From: a virus | Length of the DNA: 27,272 nucleotides | Reading direction: 5' to 3' (one strand) | IMG/VR virus record: IMGVR_UViG_3300048686_000159 | Coordinates: 1-27,272 of that record | Shown here: positions 5,105-16,472 of the stretch, piece after piece | How the letters are laid out: every line of letters starts with the position of its first letter | Numbering within the stretch: the first letter of the stretch is position 1 | The notes under the pieces: generated by a model | Databases searched by the model: none | What the model saw: only the letters and a program-made list of their open reading frames with translations | Told to the model about the DNA's origin: nothing | Translations under genes and position numbers: made by a program

Positions 5105-5132
5105 GCCTAGGTATTTGCCTAGGCTTTTTTTT
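5105..5132 (+). terminator. Rho-independent terminator after the packaging/scaffold genes
   Basis: A perfect 7-bp stem GCCTAGG/CCTAGGC with a 6-nt loop (TATTTG) is followed at once by eight T residues. It sits 22 nt after the scaffold stop and just before a promoter-like sequence, so it separates the packaging operon from the coat operon. Confidence 0.9.
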
Positions 5133-5186: not shown

Positions 5187-5252
5187 GCCCTGACATTACT
5201 TGCGGCATTCAGATAATTCGAGGGATCGGCTCCCATCTGAAATAATAAGGGC
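5187..5252 (+). promoter_or_regulatory. Nested stem-loop in the coat-gene 5' leader
   Basis: Three co-linear inverted repeats nest inside one another: GCCCT (5187-5191)/AGGGC (5248-5252), TTCAGAT (5208-5214)/ATCTGAA (5235-5241) and GGGA (5222-5225)/TCCC (5231-5234) around a 5-nt loop. The ribosome-binding site (GGAG at 5273-5276) lies outside and stays free. A stable leader could protect the very abundant coat mRNA from 5' decay; this is inference. Confidence 0.5.
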
Positions 5253-6919: not shown

Positions 6920-6930
6920 AGGATGAAACT

Positions 6931-6962
6931 AAGGGGCCAGTGTAAAAGCTGGCCTCTTATTT
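6931..6962 (+). terminator. Terminator or attenuator after the coat operon
   Basis: AAGGGGCCAG and CTGGCCTCTT form a 10-bp stem with one G-U pair and an 8-nt loop (6941-6948), followed by the weak tract ATTTAA. It starts 11 nt after the stop at 6919. The short T-run suggests partial termination, reducing transcription into the fibre block. Confidence 0.65.
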
Positions 6963-7657: not shown

Positions 7658-8941
7658 ATGGCCAATGTAAAGATTTCAGCATTACCTGCTGTTACTACTG
7701 TTGTTCCGGGAACAGACGTTCTTCCTCTTGTATCAGGCGGTGTAACGACCAAGGCAACGCCAAATGCAATTATTAATGCAAGTCTGTCTGCACAGACCAG
7801 TTTGAGTTTGTATGGCGGAACATGGAGCCTTGCAAATAATACGACGATCAGCGCTGCAAGCACGAAAACGCTCACCCTCAACGGCGGCGCAGGATCAAAT
7901 GGTCTGGTGCTGGATGCGTCGAATAATGTAGGGATTGGCGGCGCTGCAGCACAAAAGTTTCATGTACAAAACGCTGGTGCAGTTATTGGGCTGCTTCAAA
8001 ACACCGCCTCAACCGCTGATGCTCGTTATCGCGTTCAAAACACTGGCGGGTCTTCTGATTGGGGCGTGGACGGAACGGGTACTTACTTTCAGGACAACAA
8101 CAGTCGCCCTTTTATTTGGTATACGGCTGGTTCAGAACGCCTCCGCCTCGACTCCTCCGGCAACCTTGGCTTGGGTGTTACGCCGAGTGCTTGGAGTTTG
8201 TATAAGGGAATCCAGCTATTTTACGGTGGGTCGATAACTGCTAGCACCGTTGTTCCTATCACCGCTATCGGAGCAAATTATTACTACGACGGGTCTGCCT
8301 ACAGATACCTATATTCTTCTCATTATGCTTCTAGATTTTTAGTTGATGGATATTCTGGCGGTTTTTCTTGGAGTATAGCCCCCTCCGGCACAGCAGGAAA
8401 CGCAATTTCCTTCACTCAGGCGATGACGCTGGATGGGAGTGGGAATTTGTTGGTTGGGACGACTACTAATACTTATTCTGCAGTTGGGTCGTTTAAATCT
8501 ATAGCCGACAATGTAGCGTGTGAATTTTACCGACAAGGGACAGGCTCTGGTTCAGCTATTGTAACTTTCAACTCAAATGCAACGGCTACAGAATCGTTAA
8601 GGTCTTACATTGATGCCTCTAGTGGAAACCTAACTGTTATCTCGGATGAACGGGTAAAAGAAAACATATCAAGCATTACTTATGGCCTTGCTGATATTCT
8701 TTTGCTTCGCCCTGTAAGTTTCACATGGAAAAACAGCACCGGCACCAAAATTAATTTTGGTTTTATTGCCCAAGAAGTTGAAAGTGTAGTGCCGGAAATT
8801 ATTACCACGCTAGGTGAGGACTTATCAAATACCATCCCAAATCAAAAGATGCTTGATAAAGAATCTGTAATACCAATCTTAGTCAAAGCCATCCAAGAAC
8901 TCTCCGCAGAACTCAACGAACTCAAACAGAGGATTAACTAA
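7658..8941 (+). CDS. Tail fibre with C-terminal S74 intramolecular chaperone
   Basis: A 427-residue fibre. The N-terminus (MANVKISALPAVTTVVPGTD) is a common phage fibre start. The middle contains beta-rich phage fibre repeats of the type SERLRLDSSGNLGLG and MTLDGSGNLLVGTTTN. The last ~99 residues are a Peptidase_S74 domain: S329-D-E-R-V-K334 gives the Ser and Lys of the self-cleavage dyad known from endosialidase-type chaperones, followed by FGFIAQEVESVVPEI and a final coiled coil (VKAIQELSAELNELKQ). In that family the domain folds the trimer, then cuts itself off just before the Ser. The mature fibre would then end near residue 328. Start ATG 7658 has GGAG 6 nt upstream; its stop overlaps the next ATG (TAATG). 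Confidence 0.88.
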   Translation: MANVKISALPAVTTVVPGTDVLPLVSGGVTTKATPNAIINASLSAQTSLSLYGGTWSLANNTTISAASTKTLTLNGGAGSNGLVLDASNNVGIGGAAAQKFHVQNAGAVIGLLQNTASTADARYRVQNTGGSSDWGVDGTGTYFQDNNSRPFIWYTAGSERLRLDSSGNLGLGVTPSAWSLYKGIQLFYGGSITASTVVPITAIGANYYYDGSAYRYLYSSHYASRFLVDGYSGGFSWSIAPSGTAGNAISFTQAMTLDGSGNLLVGTTTNTYSAVGSFKSIADNVACEFYRQGTGSGSAIVTFNSNATATESLRSYIDASSGNLTVISDERVKENISSITYGLADILLLRPVSFTWKNSTGTKINFGFIAQEVESVVPEIITTLGEDLSNTIPNQKMLDKESVIPILVKAIQELSAELNELKQRIN

Positions 8942-9276
8942 TGTCAACTCAATTTGTATGGACGATTTCACAGCTTGACTGTATCCCGCAGGTTGGCGAT
9001 CTCACAGACTACTGCGTAGTCTCCCACTGGCAATGCCAAGGCTCAGACGGCGAAGGGCACACGGGTCAGGTCTATTCCACCGTTTCTTTCCCGGTCGATC
9101 CTGATAAACAGGACTTCACGCCCTACGAAGACATCACGCTTGAACAGGCAATCCTCTGGACGCAAGAAGCACTCGGTGAAGAACAGGTCGCGGCGGTGTA
9201 CACGTCTATTGACACGCAGATTGAGAATCAAATCAATCCTCCTATCGTCAGTCCTCCTCTTCCTTGGAGCAACTAA
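8941..9276 (+). CDS. Small fibre-associated protein of unknown function (111 aa)
   Basis: A 111-residue acidic protein overlapping the fibre stop by 1 nt, with AGAGGA 8 nt before its ATG. It starts STQFVWTISQLDCIPQVGD, includes VSHWQCQGSDGEGHTGQVYS and a helical ITLEQAILWTQEALGEEQVA, and ends in a Pro-rich tail (NPPIVSPPLPWSN). Proteins of this type recur next to tail fibre genes in environmental phages and have no proven function. Translational coupling to the fibre suggests a role in fibre assembly or attachment; this is inference. Confidence 0.65.
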   Translation: MSTQFVWTISQLDCIPQVGDLTDYCVVSHWQCQGSDGEGHTGQVYSTVSFPVDPDKQDFTPYEDITLEQAILWTQEALGEEQVAAVYTSIDTQIENQINPPIVSPPLPWSN

Positions 9277-9287
9277 GCTCAATAGGC

Positions 9288-9293
9288 TATAAT
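9288..9293 (+). promoter_or_regulatory. Promoter -10 candidate before the giant fibre operon
   Basis: TATAAT is a perfect sigma70 -10 hexamer in the 53-nt gap after the preceding gene. The best -35 (TTGGAG at 9264-9269, 18-bp spacer) matches only three of six, so it may be weak or need an activator. A start about 7 nt downstream would fall inside the left arm of the hairpin at 9294-9326. Confidence 0.4.
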
Positions 9294-9326
9294 CTTTACT
9301 CCAATAACTGTTTTACTGGAGTAAAG
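9294..9326 (+). promoter_or_regulatory. Hairpin sequestering a ribosome-binding site
   Basis: CTTTACTCCA (9294-9303) pairs perfectly with TGGAGTAAAG (9317-9326), giving a 10-bp stem and a 13-nt loop. The right arm contains GGAG (9318-9321), the only good Shine-Dalgarno for the ATG at 9330. There is no T-tract, so it is not a terminator. It should block translation in long read-through mRNAs. Confidence 0.65.
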
Positions 9327-9329
9327 TAA

Positions 9330-9491
9330 ATGAAACTGGAACTTGAAATTGCTGAGGTCAACAACATTCTAGCTGCTCTCAGCAAATTTCCATTTGAACA
9401 GGTCGCTGAACTAATCGCTAAGATTCGTGAACAAGCGATTCCGCAAGTTCCCGCAGAAGAAGCAGAAAGTGGCGACATAACCTCCGACTAA
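9330..9491 (+). CDS. Small fibre-linked protein (53 aa) of unknown function
   Basis: ATG 9330 to TAA 9489-9491 encodes 53 residues starting MKLELEIAEVNNILAALSKF, then a helix (PFEQVAELIAKIREQAIPQV) and an acidic end. I recognise this as a recurrent tiny phage protein type (MKLELE.AEVN.ILAALSKLP..QV..LI.KI..QA.PQ) located near tail fibre genes; its role is not known to me. It is almost entirely helical. GGAG lies 8 nt upstream but inside the hairpin at 9294-9326, so its translation is probably regulated. It is 9 nt ahead of the giant fibre gene and may be coupled to it. Confidence 0.8.
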   Translation: MKLELEIAEVNNILAALSKFPFEQVAELIAKIREQAIPQVPAEEAESGDITSD

Positions 9492-9500
9492 AGAGGATTC

Positions 9501-12500
9501 ATGTCAAACTTAGGCCCACAGCAGATAAATTCATCTTATCCAGGACTTCTTCAGGTTCCTGGCGGTGCAACAGCAACATTAAAAACTGTTACTGATGGAC
9601 TTGGAACGGAAGTTCCCATTCAAATCAGCACAACTAATGTTGTTATCTCGGGCCTAACAAATGATTATGCGGCCAATCTGATAGGCGGATCTGCAGGACG
9701 GATTCCCTATCAGACTGGTTTATCCTCTACTGCTTTCACAACAGTAGGCATTGCAGGCCAAGTTCTTGTTAGCTCTGGTACTGGCGCTCCAGCATGGAGC
9801 AATACTGCGCCAAGTGCTTTAACGTCAAACACTGCGCTTTCAAGCACTAACTTGCTTGGAGGATCTGCAGGACAACTTCCGTATCAAACAGGATCTGGCG
9901 CAACTGGATTCATTGCAAATGGTTTTGCAGGACAAGTATTGCGCTCTAACGGCGCATTAGCTCCGAGCTGGACAACTCTCAACGCAATTAGCGTCAATGC
10001 TTTGCCAATTACAGGCGGAAGCATGTCTGGCGCGATTGACATGAACAATTACGCGCTTACTGATTTGCCTGCACCAAGTGCAGCATCTGATGCAGCGACA
10101 AAAGCGTATGTTGATTCTGTTGCAACAGGATTAAACATTAAAGCATCATGCGTTGCCGCAACTACGGCTAATATAACGCTTTCTGGCGCACAAACAATAG
10201 ACACTGTTGCGGTAACGGCTGGCCAGCGCGTTCTAGTCAAGAATCAAACGACAACGGCTGATAATGGCATCTATGTCTGTGATGCAAGCACTTGGACCAG
10301 ATCAACTGATGCTGATACATGGAGCGAGCTTGTCGGAGCAACGGTATTCATTACCGGAGGATCAGCAAATCTTGCAACAACATGGACATGCAACGTAGCA
10401 GCAGGTGGACTTCTCGGTGTCACGCCAGTTACGTTTGTTCAATTTGCAGGATCTCAAAGCTACACTGCAGGAAATGGCCTAACTTTAGTTGGCACTCAAT
10501 TTAGCTTGTCTGCGCCAGTTTCTGTCACTAATGGTGGTACTGGAGTTAGCACTTTAACTGGTATTGCTTACGGCAATGCAACTTCTGCGTTTACTGCAGC
10601 AACAGCGGCTCAGATTGTTTCAGCGATTGGCTCCACGGCGGTAACGAATGCCACAAATGCAGCATCTTGTTCTGGCAATGCAGCCACAGCTACAGCTTTA
10701 GAAACTGCAAGACTTATCAATGGCGTTTCTTTCAACGGAACGGCAAATATCTCTATTACGGCGAGCGATCCGTACTCATTAACGTTTAACACATCAGGGG
10801 CAGGCGCTGCATCTGGTGCAACATTCGATGGTTCAGCAGCAAGAACCATTTCTTACAACACGATTGGCGCAGCCAATGTCAGCGGATCAAATGCAACTGC
10901 AGGCAGCACATGGGATATAAACATTGCTCGCACTGCAGCATATGCGGATGACCTAAACGGCGGTTCTGCTGGTAACGTTATCTATCAGTCTGCGGCGGGT
11001 TCAACAGCGTTTCTTGCTAACGGATCTGCTGGATTGATTCTTGCCAGCAATGGTGTTGGATCTTCTCCATATTGGACTAGCACTGCGCCAGGTGCGGTTA
11101 ATGTTGTAAGCAAAAACGCTGGCGATATTCTTTATCAGTCTTCTACGAATGTCACTGCAGGGCTCGCAATTGCGCCGAATGGATACATTCTTGCATCAGA
11201 TGGCGTAACGCCAGTTTGGACTGCAGGCATCAATCTCAGCACTCAAGCAATCGGTGTCCTGCCTATTTCAAATGGTGGGACTGGCGCTTCTACTGCGGCT
11301 AATGCAATAAACAACTTGCTTCCGTATCAGGGGGCAACGCCAGACAGATACCTGAAGACAGATGGAACTAATGTTTCTTGGCAGCATGCTGTTAGCTCAG
11401 TCACCTTAGACACGCTTTCAACCGGATTGCTGGTAAATACGCTGACCAGCGCAACGATAACGACTGCAGGCACTTTTAATCTATCAGGTGTGCTGAATGC
11501 TACTAATGGCGGCACAGGCGTATCTACATTGTCTGGCATTGTATACGGTAATGGCACAAGCGCGTTTACTGCAGCCACTGGGCCACAGGTTGTAGGCGTT
11601 ATTGGCGCAAACTATGTGCAAAACGCCACTAATGCAACGAACTCAGTAAATTCAACAACTGCAACTAATCTAGCTAATGGCACTGCAGGCGCGATTGTTT
11701 ATCAATCTTCTGCAAGCACAACAGATTTTGTTTCTGGTACATCTGGAAGATTCCTGCAGTCTAACGGTTCTGCTGCTCCTGCATTTGTTGCGCTTTCTGC
11801 TGGCGCTGGTCTTACGTTTTCAAGCAATACGTTTAGTCTTGATATTCCTGTAACAGTAGCCAATGGCGGAACAGGCGTAACGACATTATCAGGTGTCCTA
11901 TACGGAAATGGCACTAGTGCAGTCTCTAGCGCAACTGGCGCTCAAATTGTCGATGCAATCGGATCTGTTTCGGTAGAAAACGCAGACTTTGCAACGCTTG
12001 CACAAAATGCATTTTTCGCAGGAAACATAGCGGGAAAATCAGCAGGACAATTACTGTATCAATCTGCTCCTGATACAACAAGCGCGGTTGCTGCAGGCGT
12101 TTCCAATCAAATTCTTTTGTCTGCTGGAACTTCTGCTCCAGTTTGGGCAAATAGCGCTCCAAAAGCGACAAATCTTGATGCTGGTGTTGCAGGATCAGTG
12201 CCGTATCAGTCAGCAATCGGTGTTACTGCTTACACCGCTGCAGGCGCAAACAATCAGGTGCTTACCAGCAACGGAACTGTTCCTCAATGGAGCAATTCCG
12301 TCTCTTCCGCAAACAACCTTGCGGGAGGAGCTGCAGGAGCTGTTCCTTATCAGTCAGCTACCGGAACAACTGCCTTCTCGTTATCTGGCGCGTCTGGGCA
12401 GTTTTTAAGCTCAACAGGGTCAACTGCTCCTACTTGGACAACGATTACTCCTGCACTTATTGGCGCATTGGCAGTAAACGGATCGAATAGCATGTCTGCA

Positions 12501-15500
12501 GACCTGAACATGTCTGCATACAAAATCACTAACCTTGCAACTCCAACAAATTCTGGAGATGCAGCAAATAAATCTTACGTTGACTCGGTTGCGTCTGGAC
12601 TAAATCTCAAGACTGCGTGTGTTGCAGCAACGACTGCAAACATTACGTTGTCAGGCACTCAGACAATTGATGGCGTTTCTGTTGTTGCAACCAATCGAGT
12701 GCTTGTAAAGAATCAGTCAGCAAGCGCAGAGAACGGAATTTACGTTGTTGACGCTAGTACATGGTCGCGTTCGACGGATGCTGACACATGGTCTGAGCTT
12801 GTTGGCGCTACTGTCTTTGTCACTGGAGGTTCAACGAACGGCACAACGACATGGGCATGTAATGTTTCTCCAGGTGGAACGCTTGGAACTACGCCTGTCA
12901 CGTTTGTGCAGTTTTCTGGCTCGCAGTCATACACTGCAGGAGCAGGTTTAACGCTTGCTGGCAATCAGTTTTCTATCACTGCGCCTGTCTCCGTCTCTCT
13001 TGGCGGAACTGGCGTTACAACGCTTTCAGGTATTGCTTACGGAAACGGCACTAGCGCCTTTACAGCAGCCTCTGCAGCGCAAATTGTTAGCGCTATCGGA
13101 TCAACTCCGGTTGCAAATGCAACGACTGCTGCAAGTTGTTCAGGAAACTCAGCAACTTCAGACAAAGTAAACAACGCAGTAACGTTTTCGGCTGACGGCA
13201 CTGGTGATTATGCCGCTGATGATCTGCTTGCTGAAAACAATGACTTTATCTTGTCAGAAGCAAGTAGCTTTATTGTTACGCAAGCAACTGGTTCCACTAC
13301 ATTTGATGGAAGTTCTGCGCTTAATATCTCTTACAATAGCATAAACGCTGCGGCAATTGATGGAAATAATGTTGATGCTGGTTCAACATGGAATATTAAC
13401 GTATCAGGCACTTCGACTTCATTGGCTGGCGGCGATACTGGAAATATTCCTTATCAGTTGTCTTCTGGTCAAACAGCGTTTCTAAACACTGGCGGTATTG
13501 GCTACATTCTGACTTCTGACGGATATGCGCCACAATGGTCTGCAACAATTGATCTTGCAAGCAACGTTTCTGGCGTATTGTCTCCTCAGTTTGGTGGAAC
13601 CGGCGCTGTTTCATTGACTGGTATTTTTTACGGAAATGCTCTTGGAGCTGCAACTGCTGCTACTCCAGCGCAAATTGTTGCCGCAATTGGATCGGAGTCC
13701 GTACAAAACTCCTATTTTGCTGGAACTGCTGTTCTTGCACAATCATCTTTAGATATTTCAGGCGGAAACACAGGTCAGCTTGTATATCAAGGAAGTCCAG
13801 GTTTCACTACGTTCTTAACTGCAGGCACTAATGGCCAAGCCTTAACGTACAACACTTCTTTATCGCGCCCGCAATGGACAACGCTTGGCGATTTGTCATT
13901 AATAAATACAAATGCGTCAACGACACAATATCTTAGAGGCGATGGAACATGGGTAACACCTCCAGTTAACGCTGGAACTGTTACTTCTGTTGCACTAACT
14001 GCCCCTACTGGATTCTCTGTCTCTGGTTCGCCAGTAACGGCATCAGGAACGCTTGCTCTTTCATTTGCTGCAGGTTACTCGCTTCCAACGACTGCTTCAC
14101 AGGCAAACTGGGACAATGCTTATTCTCAAAGACTGCAATGGGATGGCGGATCTACAAATCTCAATGCAGTAACCGGCAGAACGTCTCTTGGTCTTGGATC
14201 ATTATCAACGCTGTCTCCAACTGGCGCTGCATCAAGCAGTACATTTTTGCGTGGAGATGGAGTCTGGGCAACGCCTCCTACAGCAGTAGGCACTGTAACA
14301 AGCGTTGGACTAACTGTACCGACTGGATTGGTTGTTGCGGGTTCTCCAATTACGTCATCTGGAACGTTTGCAGTTAGTCTTCAATCTGGCTATTCAATTC
14401 CAACAACAGCATCTCAAGCAAACTGGGATAGCGCATACACGCAACGTTTGCAATGGGATGGCGGCGCAACTAATCTTAATGCGACAACTGGTCGCGCTAG
14501 TCTTGGCCTTGGAAACGTAGCAACCATCAGCACCAATGGTTCTACAAGTCAATTTTTGCGTGGTGACGGTGCATGGGCTACACCAGCAGCAGGATCAGGG
14601 ACAGTTACTAGCGTAGGAACAGGAACTGGCTTAACCGGTGGGCCGATAACTACGTCAGGAACTATTTCACTTGCAAACACATCGGTTACTCCCGGATCGT
14701 ATACGAGCGCAAACATTACTGTTGACGCGCAAGGCAGGATTACTGCTGCTTCAAACGGATCTGCGGCGGCTGGCGTTACGCAAATTGTTGCAGGATCTAA
14801 CGTAACAATTTCTCCTGCAGGTGGCACAGGAGTTGTAACAATCAATGCCTCTGGCGGCGGTGGCGGAAGTTCAATTTACTTTAATGTCACAGCATATGGT
14901 GCTTCTCCAAGTGCTTCACCGTCTGCAAATAGAGCTGCATTTCAGAATGCAATCAATGCGGCTGCAACATCTAGAGGCACTGTATATGTTCCTGCAGGCA
15001 CTTATGCGATAGATGACACGCTTGTTCTGAGCAATGTTAACTTGCTTGGAGAAGGAACTGCATCTTACATTGCTGCAGGGATTGCAAATGCTGCGTCTCC
15101 GATTATTTATGCCAGCGGAATGATTTCAGTAAGAAATCTGCAGATTGGTTATACGTCTGGAGTAACAGGTAATGAAACCCAAGGACAAAAGGTTATATTT
15201 AGATGTGGTGACTTAAGGCCATCAATACCTTACGGCAATCTTCGCAATTCAATCTTTGATTACTTGTTGCTTGGTTCATGTGGAACTGCTTTTTACGAAA
15301 GCGGACAATTTACTGATGCTGCTCATTATGAAGCTGTCTTTTCAACGACATTTAGCAACATTTGGGCGTATGGATTTAGATATAGAGCATTTGATTTTCA
15401 TAGCGCAATCAGAACAGGAAATGTTTATCAAAACGTTTATCTTGGAGTAGGAGACGACAATACAACATGTGATTGTTTTTTTGCACTACAAGGTATTGAA

Positions 15501-16472
15501 TCTGAAAGCTCTATCATTCAGTTAAACGTAGAACACGGAACTTACAAAACTGCTGGCGTTATTTTTGATGGATGTGAAGGAATTGGCGCAACCTCAATGC
15601 ACATTGAGGCAATTAAACCAAATGGAAACGGTAAACCATATGTAAGATGCTCGCATTCATCAGGTTCATTCAATGATTTTACAATCATTAACTGCGACCA
15701 TACGTTTATTAACGTTCCTATTTTTGAGTTAAATTCATCTTATAACAATTATTGGTCAGCAAATGGAGTTGCTGGGGATTCACCTACAGCAAACTATTAT
15801 CATTTTGGCGTTTTGTATATTGGCAATGTTCCTACAAATTCTGGATGCACTGTATTTAGCAGAGGAACAAATGACGGATCAATGTATGTTGACATTGGAA
15901 ACTTTGAGTATGGTCCTTCTTGGTCTGCATGGCAGGCATTCCCGTATAGTGGAAACATTACGATAATAGATTCTGGCGTCAATTCGTTTTACGGCAATCC
16001 AGTAAGAACGTTAAATGGCTCTACTACAATAGGTAATCCAAACCTAACAACTGCAAATAACGGAACACCATTTTTCTTATCTAGGCCAACTAATGGATCT
16101 GTATTACATATTCTCATAAATAATGTTGCTTCTGGCCAGCTCATTTCAACATCAGGTGGAACGCCTGGATTATTTAGCGGATCAGATTATCGACTAAAAG
16201 AAAATGTTGCACCAATTACTGATGCATTGGATAGAATAAAGAAAATAAAGTCTTATCAATACAACATCATTGGAAATAATTCACTGCAAGAAGGATTCTT
16301 AGCGCATGAGCTGGAAGACGTTTGTAGTCTAGCAGTGCATGGATCAAAAGATGCGGTTGATGAAGACGGAAACCCAGTCTATCAGCAGGTTGCTCCAGCA
16401 TTACTGATTCCTGTTCTTGCTCAAGCAGTGCATGATTTATTGATTAGACTTGAAGCCTTGGAGAACAAATAA
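9501..16472 (+). CDS. Giant multidomain tail fibre with beta-helix body and S74 chaperone
   Basis: A 2,323-residue fibre. From the N-terminus: an attachment-like start (MSNLGPQQINSSYPGLLQVP); about ten copies of a ~38-residue motif GGSAG..PYQT....TAF...G.AGQ.L.S.G..AP.W between residues 60 and 1470; five or six copies of NGGTGV(S/T)TLSGI.YGNGTSAF followed by AA.IV.AIGS; a ~197-residue module present twice (197-393 and 1020-1216); tandem ~104-residue modules starting GTVTSV at 1492, 1597 and 1700, punctuated by LRGDG.W; a Gly-rich hinge (~1780-1790); a pectate-lyase-like beta-helix (NVTAYGASPSA... to ~2180, with RGTVYVPAGTYAI); and an S74 chaperone (S2228-D-Y-R-L-K2233 to the end). The beta-helix may bind or cut surface polysaccharide; no catalytic residues are certain. 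AGAGGA precedes the ATG by 3-8 nt. The beta-helix region is AT-rich (32-37% GC in four sampled lines). Confidence 0.9.
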   Translation: MSNLGPQQINSSYPGLLQVPGGATATLKTVTDGLGTEVPIQISTTNVVISGLTNDYAANLIGGSAGRIPYQTGLSSTAFTTVGIAGQVLVSSGTGAPAWSNTAPSALTSNTALSSTNLLGGSAGQLPYQTGSGATGFIANGFAGQVLRSNGALAPSWTTLNAISVNALPITGGSMSGAIDMNNYALTDLPAPSAASDAATKAYVDSVATGLNIKASCVAATTANITLSGAQTIDTVAVTAGQRVLVKNQTTTADNGIYVCDASTWTRSTDADTWSELVGATVFITGGSANLATTWTCNVAAGGLLGVTPVTFVQFAGSQSYTAGNGLTLVGTQFSLSAPVSVTNGGTGVSTLTGIAYGNATSAFTAATAAQIVSAIGSTAVTNATNAASCSGNAATATALETARLINGVSFNGTANISITASDPYSLTFNTSGAGAASGATFDGSAARTISYNTIGAANVSGSNATAGSTWDINIARTAAYADDLNGGSAGNVIYQSAAGSTAFLANGSAGLILASNGVGSSPYWTSTAPGAVNVVSKNAGDILYQSSTNVTAGLAIAPNGYILASDGVTPVWTAGINLSTQAIGVLPISNGGTGASTAANAINNLLPYQGATPDRYLKTDGTNVSWQHAVSSVTLDTLSTGLLVNTLTSATITTAGTFNLSGVLNATNGGTGVSTLSGIVYGNGTSAFTAATGPQVVGVIGANYVQNATNATNSVNSTTATNLANGTAGAIVYQSSASTTDFVSGTSGRFLQSNGSAAPAFVALSAGAGLTFSSNTFSLDIPVTVANGGTGVTTLSGVLYGNGTSAVSSATGAQIVDAIGSVSVENADFATLAQNAFFAGNIAGKSAGQLLYQSAPDTTSAVAAGVSNQILLSAGTSAPVWANSAPKATNLDAGVAGSVPYQSAIGVTAYTAAGANNQVLTSNGTVPQWSNSVSSANNLAGGAAGAVPYQSATGTTAFSLSGASGQFLSSTGSTAPTWTTITPALIGALAVNGSNSMSADLNMSAYKITNLATPTNSGDAANKSYVDSVASGLNLKTACVAATTANITLSGTQTIDGVSVVATNRVLVKNQSASAENGIYVVDASTWSRSTDADTWSELVGATVFVTGGSTNGTTTWACNVSPGGTLGTTPVTFVQFSGSQSYTAGAGLTLAGNQFSITAPVSVSLGGTGVTTLSGIAYGNGTSAFTAASAAQIVSAIGSTPVANATTAASCSGNSATSDKVNNAVTFSADGTGDYAADDLLAENNDFILSEASSFIVTQATGSTTFDGSSALNISYNSINAAAIDGNNVDAGSTWNINVSGTSTSLAGGDTGNIPYQLSSGQTAFLNTGGIGYILTSDGYAPQWSATIDLASNVSGVLSPQFGGTGAVSLTGIFYGNALGAATAATPAQIVAAIGSESVQNSYFAGTAVLAQSSLDISGGNTGQLVYQGSPGFTTFLTAGTNGQALTYNTSLSRPQWTTLGDLSLINTNASTTQYLRGDGTWVTPPVNAGTVTSVALTAPTGFSVSGSPVTASGTLALSFAAGYSLPTTASQANWDNAYSQRLQWDGGSTNLNAVTGRTSLGLGSLSTLSPTGAASSSTFLRGDGVWATPPTAVGTVTSVGLTVPTGLVVAGSPITSSGTFAVSLQSGYSIPTTASQANWDSAYTQRLQWDGGATNLNATTGRASLGLGNVATISTNGSTSQFLRGDGAWATPAAGSGTVTSVGTGTGLTGGPITTSGTISLANTSVTPGSYTSANITVDAQGRITAASNGSAAAGVTQIVAGSNVTISPAGGTGVVTINASGGGGGSSIYFNVTAYGASPSASPSANRAAFQNAINAAATSRGTVYVPAGTYAIDDTLVLSNVNLLGEGTASYIAAGIANAASPIIYASGMISVRNLQIGYTSGVTGNETQGQKVIFRCGDLRPSIPYGNLRNSIFDYLLLGSCGTAFYESGQFTDAAHYEAVFSTTFSNIWAYGFRYRAFDFHSAIRTGNVYQNVYLGVGDDNTTCDCFFALQGIESESSIIQLNVEHGTYKTAGVIFDGCEGIGATSMHIEAIKPNGNGKPYVRCSHSSGSFNDFTIINCDHTFINVPIFELNSSYNNYWSANGVAGDSPTANYYHFGVLYIGNVPTNSGCTVFSRGTNDGSMYVDIGNFEYGPSWSAWQAFPYSGNITIIDSGVNSFYGNPVRTLNGSTTIGNPNLTTANNGTPFFLSRPTNGSVLHILINNVASGQLISTSGGTPGLFSGSDYRLKENVAPITDALDRIKKIKSYQYNIIGNNSLQEGFLAHELEDVCSLAVHGSKDAVDEDGNPVYQQVAPALLIPVLAQAVHDLLIRLEALENK
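10089..10679 (+). repeat. Fibre module duplication, copy 1
   Basis: Residues 197-393 of the giant fibre (DAATKAYVDS... to AASCSGN) align without any gap to copy 2 exactly 2,469 bp downstream. By hand about 155 of 197 residues are identical. Contains the invariant RSTDADTWSELVGATVF block. Confidence 0.85.
12558..13148 (+). repeat. Fibre module duplication, copy 2
   Basis: Residues 1020-1216 of the giant fibre (DAANKSYVDS... to AASCSGN), the partner of 10089-10679. Codons often differ at synonymous positions, for example AGA versus CGT for Arg and AGC versus TCT for Ser inside the invariant block. Confidence 0.85.
13974..14678 (+). repeat. Tandem ~104-residue modules in the giant fibre
   Basis: Unit 1 (13974-14288) and unit 2 (14289-14597) share GTVTSV, the block LPTTASQANWDNAY or IPTTASQANWDSAY, RLQWDGG.TNLNA.TGR.SLGLG and FLRGDG.WATP. 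A third, truncated unit (14598-14678) keeps only GTVTSV...GGPITTSGT before the sequence diverges. A further LRGDGTW precedes unit 1. Confidence 0.85.

Follow-up and report, generated by a model that had tools for sequence, protein, structure and literature searches.

A conserved promoter-like block and a lineage-specific Shine-Dalgarno hairpin upstream of a small gene and a giant fibre gene in a phage fragment

In phage T4, the long early transcripts of gene e, soc and I-TevI sequester the Shine-Dalgarno (SD) sequence, and the late transcripts of these genes are made without the 5' arm of the hairpin (PMC3014915; PMC2988022). Another leader element, the pseudoknot of T4 gene 32, was considered in a 2010 review as possibly the sole viral pseudoknot involved in translational autoregulation (PMC3014915). 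A switch of the first kind had been proposed, in an earlier note made from the sequence, for one leader of a 27,272-base virus fragment (hereafter the window, i.e. the whole stretch of DNA analysed). The phage genes of this fragment include those for a portal protein, a major head protein and a P22 tail-accessory-like protein.

The leader lies on the plus strand between the gene of a DUF7936 / phrog_7802 protein (8941-9276, 111 amino acids; Pfam PF25590, E 3.5e-24, and a PHROG match) and a gene coding for 53 amino acids (9330-9491). The giant fibre gene comes next (9501-16472, 2323 amino acids), with PHROG tail-fibre and head-decoration matches. The 53-amino acid protein has 80 relatives and gave no match against PHROG and Pfam. 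AlphaFold predicts a two-helix protein (mean pLDDT 75.7; helices 7-17 and 22-36), and the family is widespread, with a length of 50-65 amino acids, a predicted two-helix hairpin and a conserved REQAIPQVP core. Elsewhere in the window, strong terminator-like hairpins are present on either side of the major head protein gene (5105-5132 and 6930-6959) with a promoter-like match of 10/12 between them (5190-5217), which suggests that the structural module is transcribed in separate units. At the major head protein gene, a 9-bp inverted repeat (5276-5284/5311-5319) spans the start codon and is possibly another start-region hairpin.

In the leader, the hexamer TATAAT (9288-9293), located 11 nt 3' of the DUF7936 stop codon, is directly followed by the left arm of a hairpin (CTTTACTCCA, 9294-9303). 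The right arm (TGGAGTAAAG, 9317-9326) contains the SD sequence GGAG (9318-9321), 8 nt from the ATG of the small gene at 9330. These positions were exact in the earlier note. The 10-bp stem is perfect and is prolonged by three inner pairs beyond one A/C mismatch, the extended arms (9294-9307/9313-9326) being 93% paired. For loops of 3-20 nt, the window contains no other perfect stem reaching 10 bp; its dinucleotide shuffles contain 0.8 such stems on average, so that a length of 10 bp alone proves nothing. The fold energy of the region 9280-9360 is unexceptional (z -1.1; 23 of 200 shuffles equally good). The unusual aspect of the stem is its placement on the SD, directly after a -10 hexamer. A terminator was ruled out, as no T run follows the stem on either strand, and the best pseudoknot candidate in the leader of the window was no better than those of shuffles (13 of 40).

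Related loci were gathered by similarity to the 53-amino acid protein, the DUF7936 protein and homologues, the leader itself not being considered. Eleven diverged leaders have in common TAnAnT, exactly 5 nt, CTCC (TTCC in one) and then about WWTnAAC. Aligned on the -10, the window reads TATAAT-CTTTA-CTCC-AATAAC, and the relatives TATAAT-CTAAT-CTCC-TACAAAC (L016), TAAAAT-AAAGC-CTCC-AATAAC (L226 and L227), TATAAT-AGCGA-CTCC-TTTTAAC (L005), TAAACT-ACGCG-CTCC-TTTTAAC (L237), TAAACT-ACGCC-TTCC-TATAAAC (L145), TAAACT-GAGCG-CTCC-AATCAAC (L007), TAAACT-ACCCG-CTCC-TATCAAC (L270), TACACT-ACGCG-CTCC-TATCAAC (L103), TACACT-ACCCT-CTCC-TTTAAC (L109) and TATACT-GCTCG-CTCC-CTTAAC (L113). In the window, CTTTA (9294-9298) forms the half of the left arm next to the promoter, CTCC (9299-9302) is the presumed transcript start and also an anti-SD, and AATAAC (9303-9308) is the downstream part of the block. 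Over the 11 leaders, the mean information per column is 1.59 bits for the -10, 0.34 for the spacer, 1.89 for CTCC and 1.13 for the next seven positions, and about 0.4 bits for the upstream flank. The spacer, of length 5 in 11/11 leaders, is unconserved in sequence: pairwise identity is about 31% for the spacer and for the 40 nt upstream.

Conservation of TATAAT, a check named in the earlier note, holds in the form TAnAnT: T1, A2 and T6 of a sigma70 -10 are invariant in the 11 leaders together with A4. Positions 3 and 5, which vary here, are the less conserved ones in sigma70 -10 elements. The -35 of the window is weak: TTGGAG (9264-9269, spacer 18), chosen by eye, scores 3/6, as does the alternative TGGAGC at 17 nt, and a simple promoter scan missed the 9288 site because of this poor -35. 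For the best -35 match at a spacing of 15-19, the family mean is 3.82/6 versus 2.78 in shuffles (0 of 2000), a statistic inflated by the shared ancestry of some leaders and by a TTGCC located within the conserved Leu-Pro-Trp coding end. The exact block motif occurs about once per contig, at the leader site, and other matches are near control level. The window has one other exact match (10542, minus strand, inside the fibre gene), which is within chance, and a promoter motif repeated across the window was thus discarded. In L226 the upstream gene is another one, so that the block accompanies the small gene and the fibre.

Judged by this alignment, chance is no explanation for the TAnAnT-N5-[CT]TCC pattern common to ten relatives, with the caution that the block was defined on the very leaders showing it. 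The promoter claimed at 9288 is thus supported by the block and by the -35 enrichment, and we consider an internal promoter at this position quite probable from these sequence features. The block is absent from the near relatives with shorter gaps, of at most about 30 nt (L001, L099/L236, L234, L240-L242 and L148). No DNA relative of the leader itself was found among phage records; the nearest one, MW202825, possesses both genes without leader gap. A scan of genome contigs yielded one relative, devoid of the leader, and the final relative search gave no further promoter-type leader. With respect to a T7-like promoter, which would call for a single-subunit RNA polymerase encoded by the phage, the family PF00940 had no match in 15 fragmentary records, in which the control was likewise silent, and comparison of the window leader with Rfam 15 gave no credible match.

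The two transcripts were compared by predicted folding. In a transcript entering from upstream, the mean probability that the SD is unpaired is 0.00, whereas it reaches 0.72-0.98 in transcripts starting at 9299-9303 (+6 to +10 after the -10), all starts giving high values. These starts remove 5-9 of the 10 left-arm bases. The earlier expectation that a start about 7 nt downstream would remove the left arm was right for most of it, not for all: from 9300, 4 of 10 bases (TCCA) remain. Between long and short transcripts, predicted SD access also rises from 0.01 to about 0.6 in L226 and from 0.21 to 0.45 in L016. Opening of the SD would cost 0.1 kcal/mol without 9294-9298 and 6.6 with these five bases, which add 6.5 and rank among the best 0.2% of all 5-mers for locking the SD. 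Of 300 shuffles that kept the -10, CTCC, SD and ATG in place, none equalled the long/short difference of the window, a case picked by a reader who had seen the hairpin. In the same shuffles, the fixed CTCC and SD already gave a closed SD for most of the long transcripts (null probability unpaired 0.11-0.32). At the level of RNA folding, the long mRNA of the window is thus likely closed and the short one open.

These data are best explained by the following mechanism. An internal sigma70-like promoter with its -10 at 9288-9293 would start transcription at about 9299-9303, inside the conserved start-region block formed by CTCC and then AATAAC, and would feed the 53-amino acid gene and perhaps the giant fibre. 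In the phage of the window, the spacer 9294-9298 and CTCCA happen to complement the SD region, so that read-through mRNA from upstream could fold the 10-bp hairpin over the SD. Locally started mRNA, lacking at least half of the left arm, would have an open SD. Promoter activity, start position and a difference in translation between the two mRNAs are suggested here by geometry, block conservation and predicted folds. In this explanation, to which we give as a whole a probability of about 0.6, the promoter would be a property of the leader family, and the transcript-dependent hairpin would belong to this lineage, either as a switch or as a by-product of CTCC facing GGAG.

The hairpin could be incidental to a plain internal promoter, its origin being the conserved start-site CTCC located opposite a GGAG-type SD; we hold this at slightly below even odds. 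In agreement with it, such stems are expected by chance in a window of this size, and random spacers mostly close the SD once CTCC and SD are fixed. The relatives point in the same direction. In the six which bear an SD, the promoter-side 5-mers lock it no better than random ones, the fraction of 5-mers performing as well or better being 0.52 in L016, 0.41 in L226, 0.38 in L227, 0.66 in L005, 0.77 in L237 and 0.25 in L145. In five others (L007, L270, L103, L109 and L113), no SD of at least 4 nt and no such hairpin could be detected, and the CTCC block is kept. CTCC is for this reason best read as a part of the start region, and by this comparison it is probably a promoter or start element; as it is also an anti-SD, some SD pairing arises wherever GGAG or GAGG follows. 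Against a purely incidental hairpin stand the rank of the window spacer among 5-mers and the shuffles mentioned above.

A true timing switch as in T4, in which the hairpin purposely silences the read-through mRNA and a local late promoter yields the protein, is a more tentative reading. It would account for the window geometry, the predicted folding and the spacer rank, and the late promoters of T4 gene e and I-TevI are likewise located within the 5' arm or beside it (PMC3014915; PMC2988022). The upstream stop codon at 9276 would moreover be too distant for a terminating ribosome to keep the left arm open. The arrangement is, however, conserved in none of the six SD-bearing relatives. In L005 and L237 the SD hairpin (CTCCTTTTA/TAAAAGAG) is wholly at or past the presumed start, from CTCC onward, so that short transcripts retain it. 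The expected conservation of the stem arms therefore failed: they drift without compensation in the relatives, which tells against the switch for the family and not for the window alone. The contrast of silent read-through and active local mRNA stands in the window at the level of predicted SD access. On sequence grounds, the transcript-dependent hairpin is a lineage-specific addition and not a family trait; it is perhaps a real gene e-like switch, perhaps incidental, and a single lineage could have gained such a switch.

A rather unlikely reading dispenses with the promoter: one long mRNA would be made, and the block in its leader would be conserved as a signal in the RNA, such as a site for a protein or a nuclease. 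Conservation does run about 7 nt beyond the presumed start, which is unusual for a sigma70 promoter, but the positions that never vary match a -10 element, and the family is enriched in -35 matches. Against the promoter counts the placement of pyrimidines by CTCC 7-9 nt after the -10, where transcripts usually start, since this is unusual for sigma70 promoters. In enterobacterial pyrC and pyrD, which have pyrimidines at the start, the start position decides SD hairpin formation. A nucleotide-sensing choice of this type, in which the CTCC pyrimidine used would decide the SD hairpin, is very improbable in the window despite pyrimidines at the normal start positions in all block leaders, since all starts between +6 and +10 give the window high SD access; such a choice would fit better L145, in which predicted access goes from 0.03 to 0.78 as the start shifts from +6 to +9.

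In many more distant relatives, the gap before the same small gene holds a compact pseudoknot of the H-type, close to the SD on its 5' side. The common plan is GGGN/NCCC crossed with a stem of 6-8 bp, a few nt 5' of the SD, and its types are GGGC-aac-CCGCTG-GCCC-tga-CAGCGG, GGGG-tatt-CACCGCTG-CCCC-atct-CAGCGGTG, GGGC-aa-GCCAGCA-GCCC-acct-TGCTGGC, GGGT-aa-GCCATCA-ACCC-tttt-TGATGGC and CGG-taa-AGACCTG-CCG-att-CAGGTCT. The carriers are L017-L050, L064-L091, L119-L144, L008 and L195, with the element about 20-75 nt upstream of the small gene. Stem 2 shows 35 doubly changed cells, a covariation matched by 0 of 500 shuffles, and the fourth pair of stem 1 has C-G, U-A, G-C and U-G variants. A strict scan of all fetched loci detected 69 copies, 67 of them with an SD and a start codon within 30 nt, versus 1 copy in 0.76 Mb of shuffled control. 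No single protein goes with the element: in L008 (5255-5302) the gene that follows it is small and unrelated (MGEKQAKPL...), and L274 and L284 have this gene after another leader, in which no pseudoknot is obvious. Larger H-type pseudoknots were found in the leaders of L157 (2497-2563), L160 (883-952), L163 (3334-3402), L173 (3331-3405) and L177 (3332-3405). Their two helices of 8 and 10 bp covary (100% paired, six doubly changed pairs), and loop 3 (about TTCTCCA) shows complementarity over 7 bp with the region of the SD. Representatives of the pseudoknot leader classes gave no credible match in Rfam 15.

These covarying pseudoknots are probably a more novel discovery than the window hairpin and, if true, would represent new families of phage translational control RNA. 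We put at even chances the wider proposal that, among uncultured phages, this leader is a hot spot of regulation, combining the promoter block, an SD-locking upgrade in the window and pseudoknots as new translational-control RNA families. Should the switch be real, five bases between the -10 and the start would have brought the T4 lysozyme trick to a phage that is no relative of T4. Even without it, a little-known group of phages gains a testable promoter block, and control at the RNA or promoter level has arisen repeatedly at one gene junction, including covarying pseudoknots not in Rfam.

The pseudoknots of the relatives resemble that of T4 gene 32 in their H-type and in their place 5' of the SD in the leader of a phage mRNA (PMC3014915), but they are much nearer the SD, belong to an unrelated gene, have two new architectures and have no known ligand. 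As in the leaders of phage Aeh1 mobE and T4 segB, the window hairpin would cover the ribosome-binding site of a small gene within a read-through unit (PMC2988022); those genes encode endonucleases, whereas that of the window codes for a 53-amino acid protein beside fibre genes. With pyrC and pyrD the window shares pyrimidines at the putative start, but its SD would be open for all starts. In T4-like gene e, the hairpin arrangement is reported to be kept in related phages. That of the window is not, with six spacers like random 5-mers and five leaders without SD or hairpin, and its starts and repression are putative, so that membership in the class of T4 e, soc and I-TevI cannot be claimed. These three T4 genes use late promoters (TATAAATA, gp55), in place of which the window has TATAAT and a CTCC start block. 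With them it nevertheless shares an SD that a stable helix of the long mRNA is predicted to enclose, a 5' arm at or just downstream of a putative local promoter, and a long mRNA predicted closed where the short one is predicted open.
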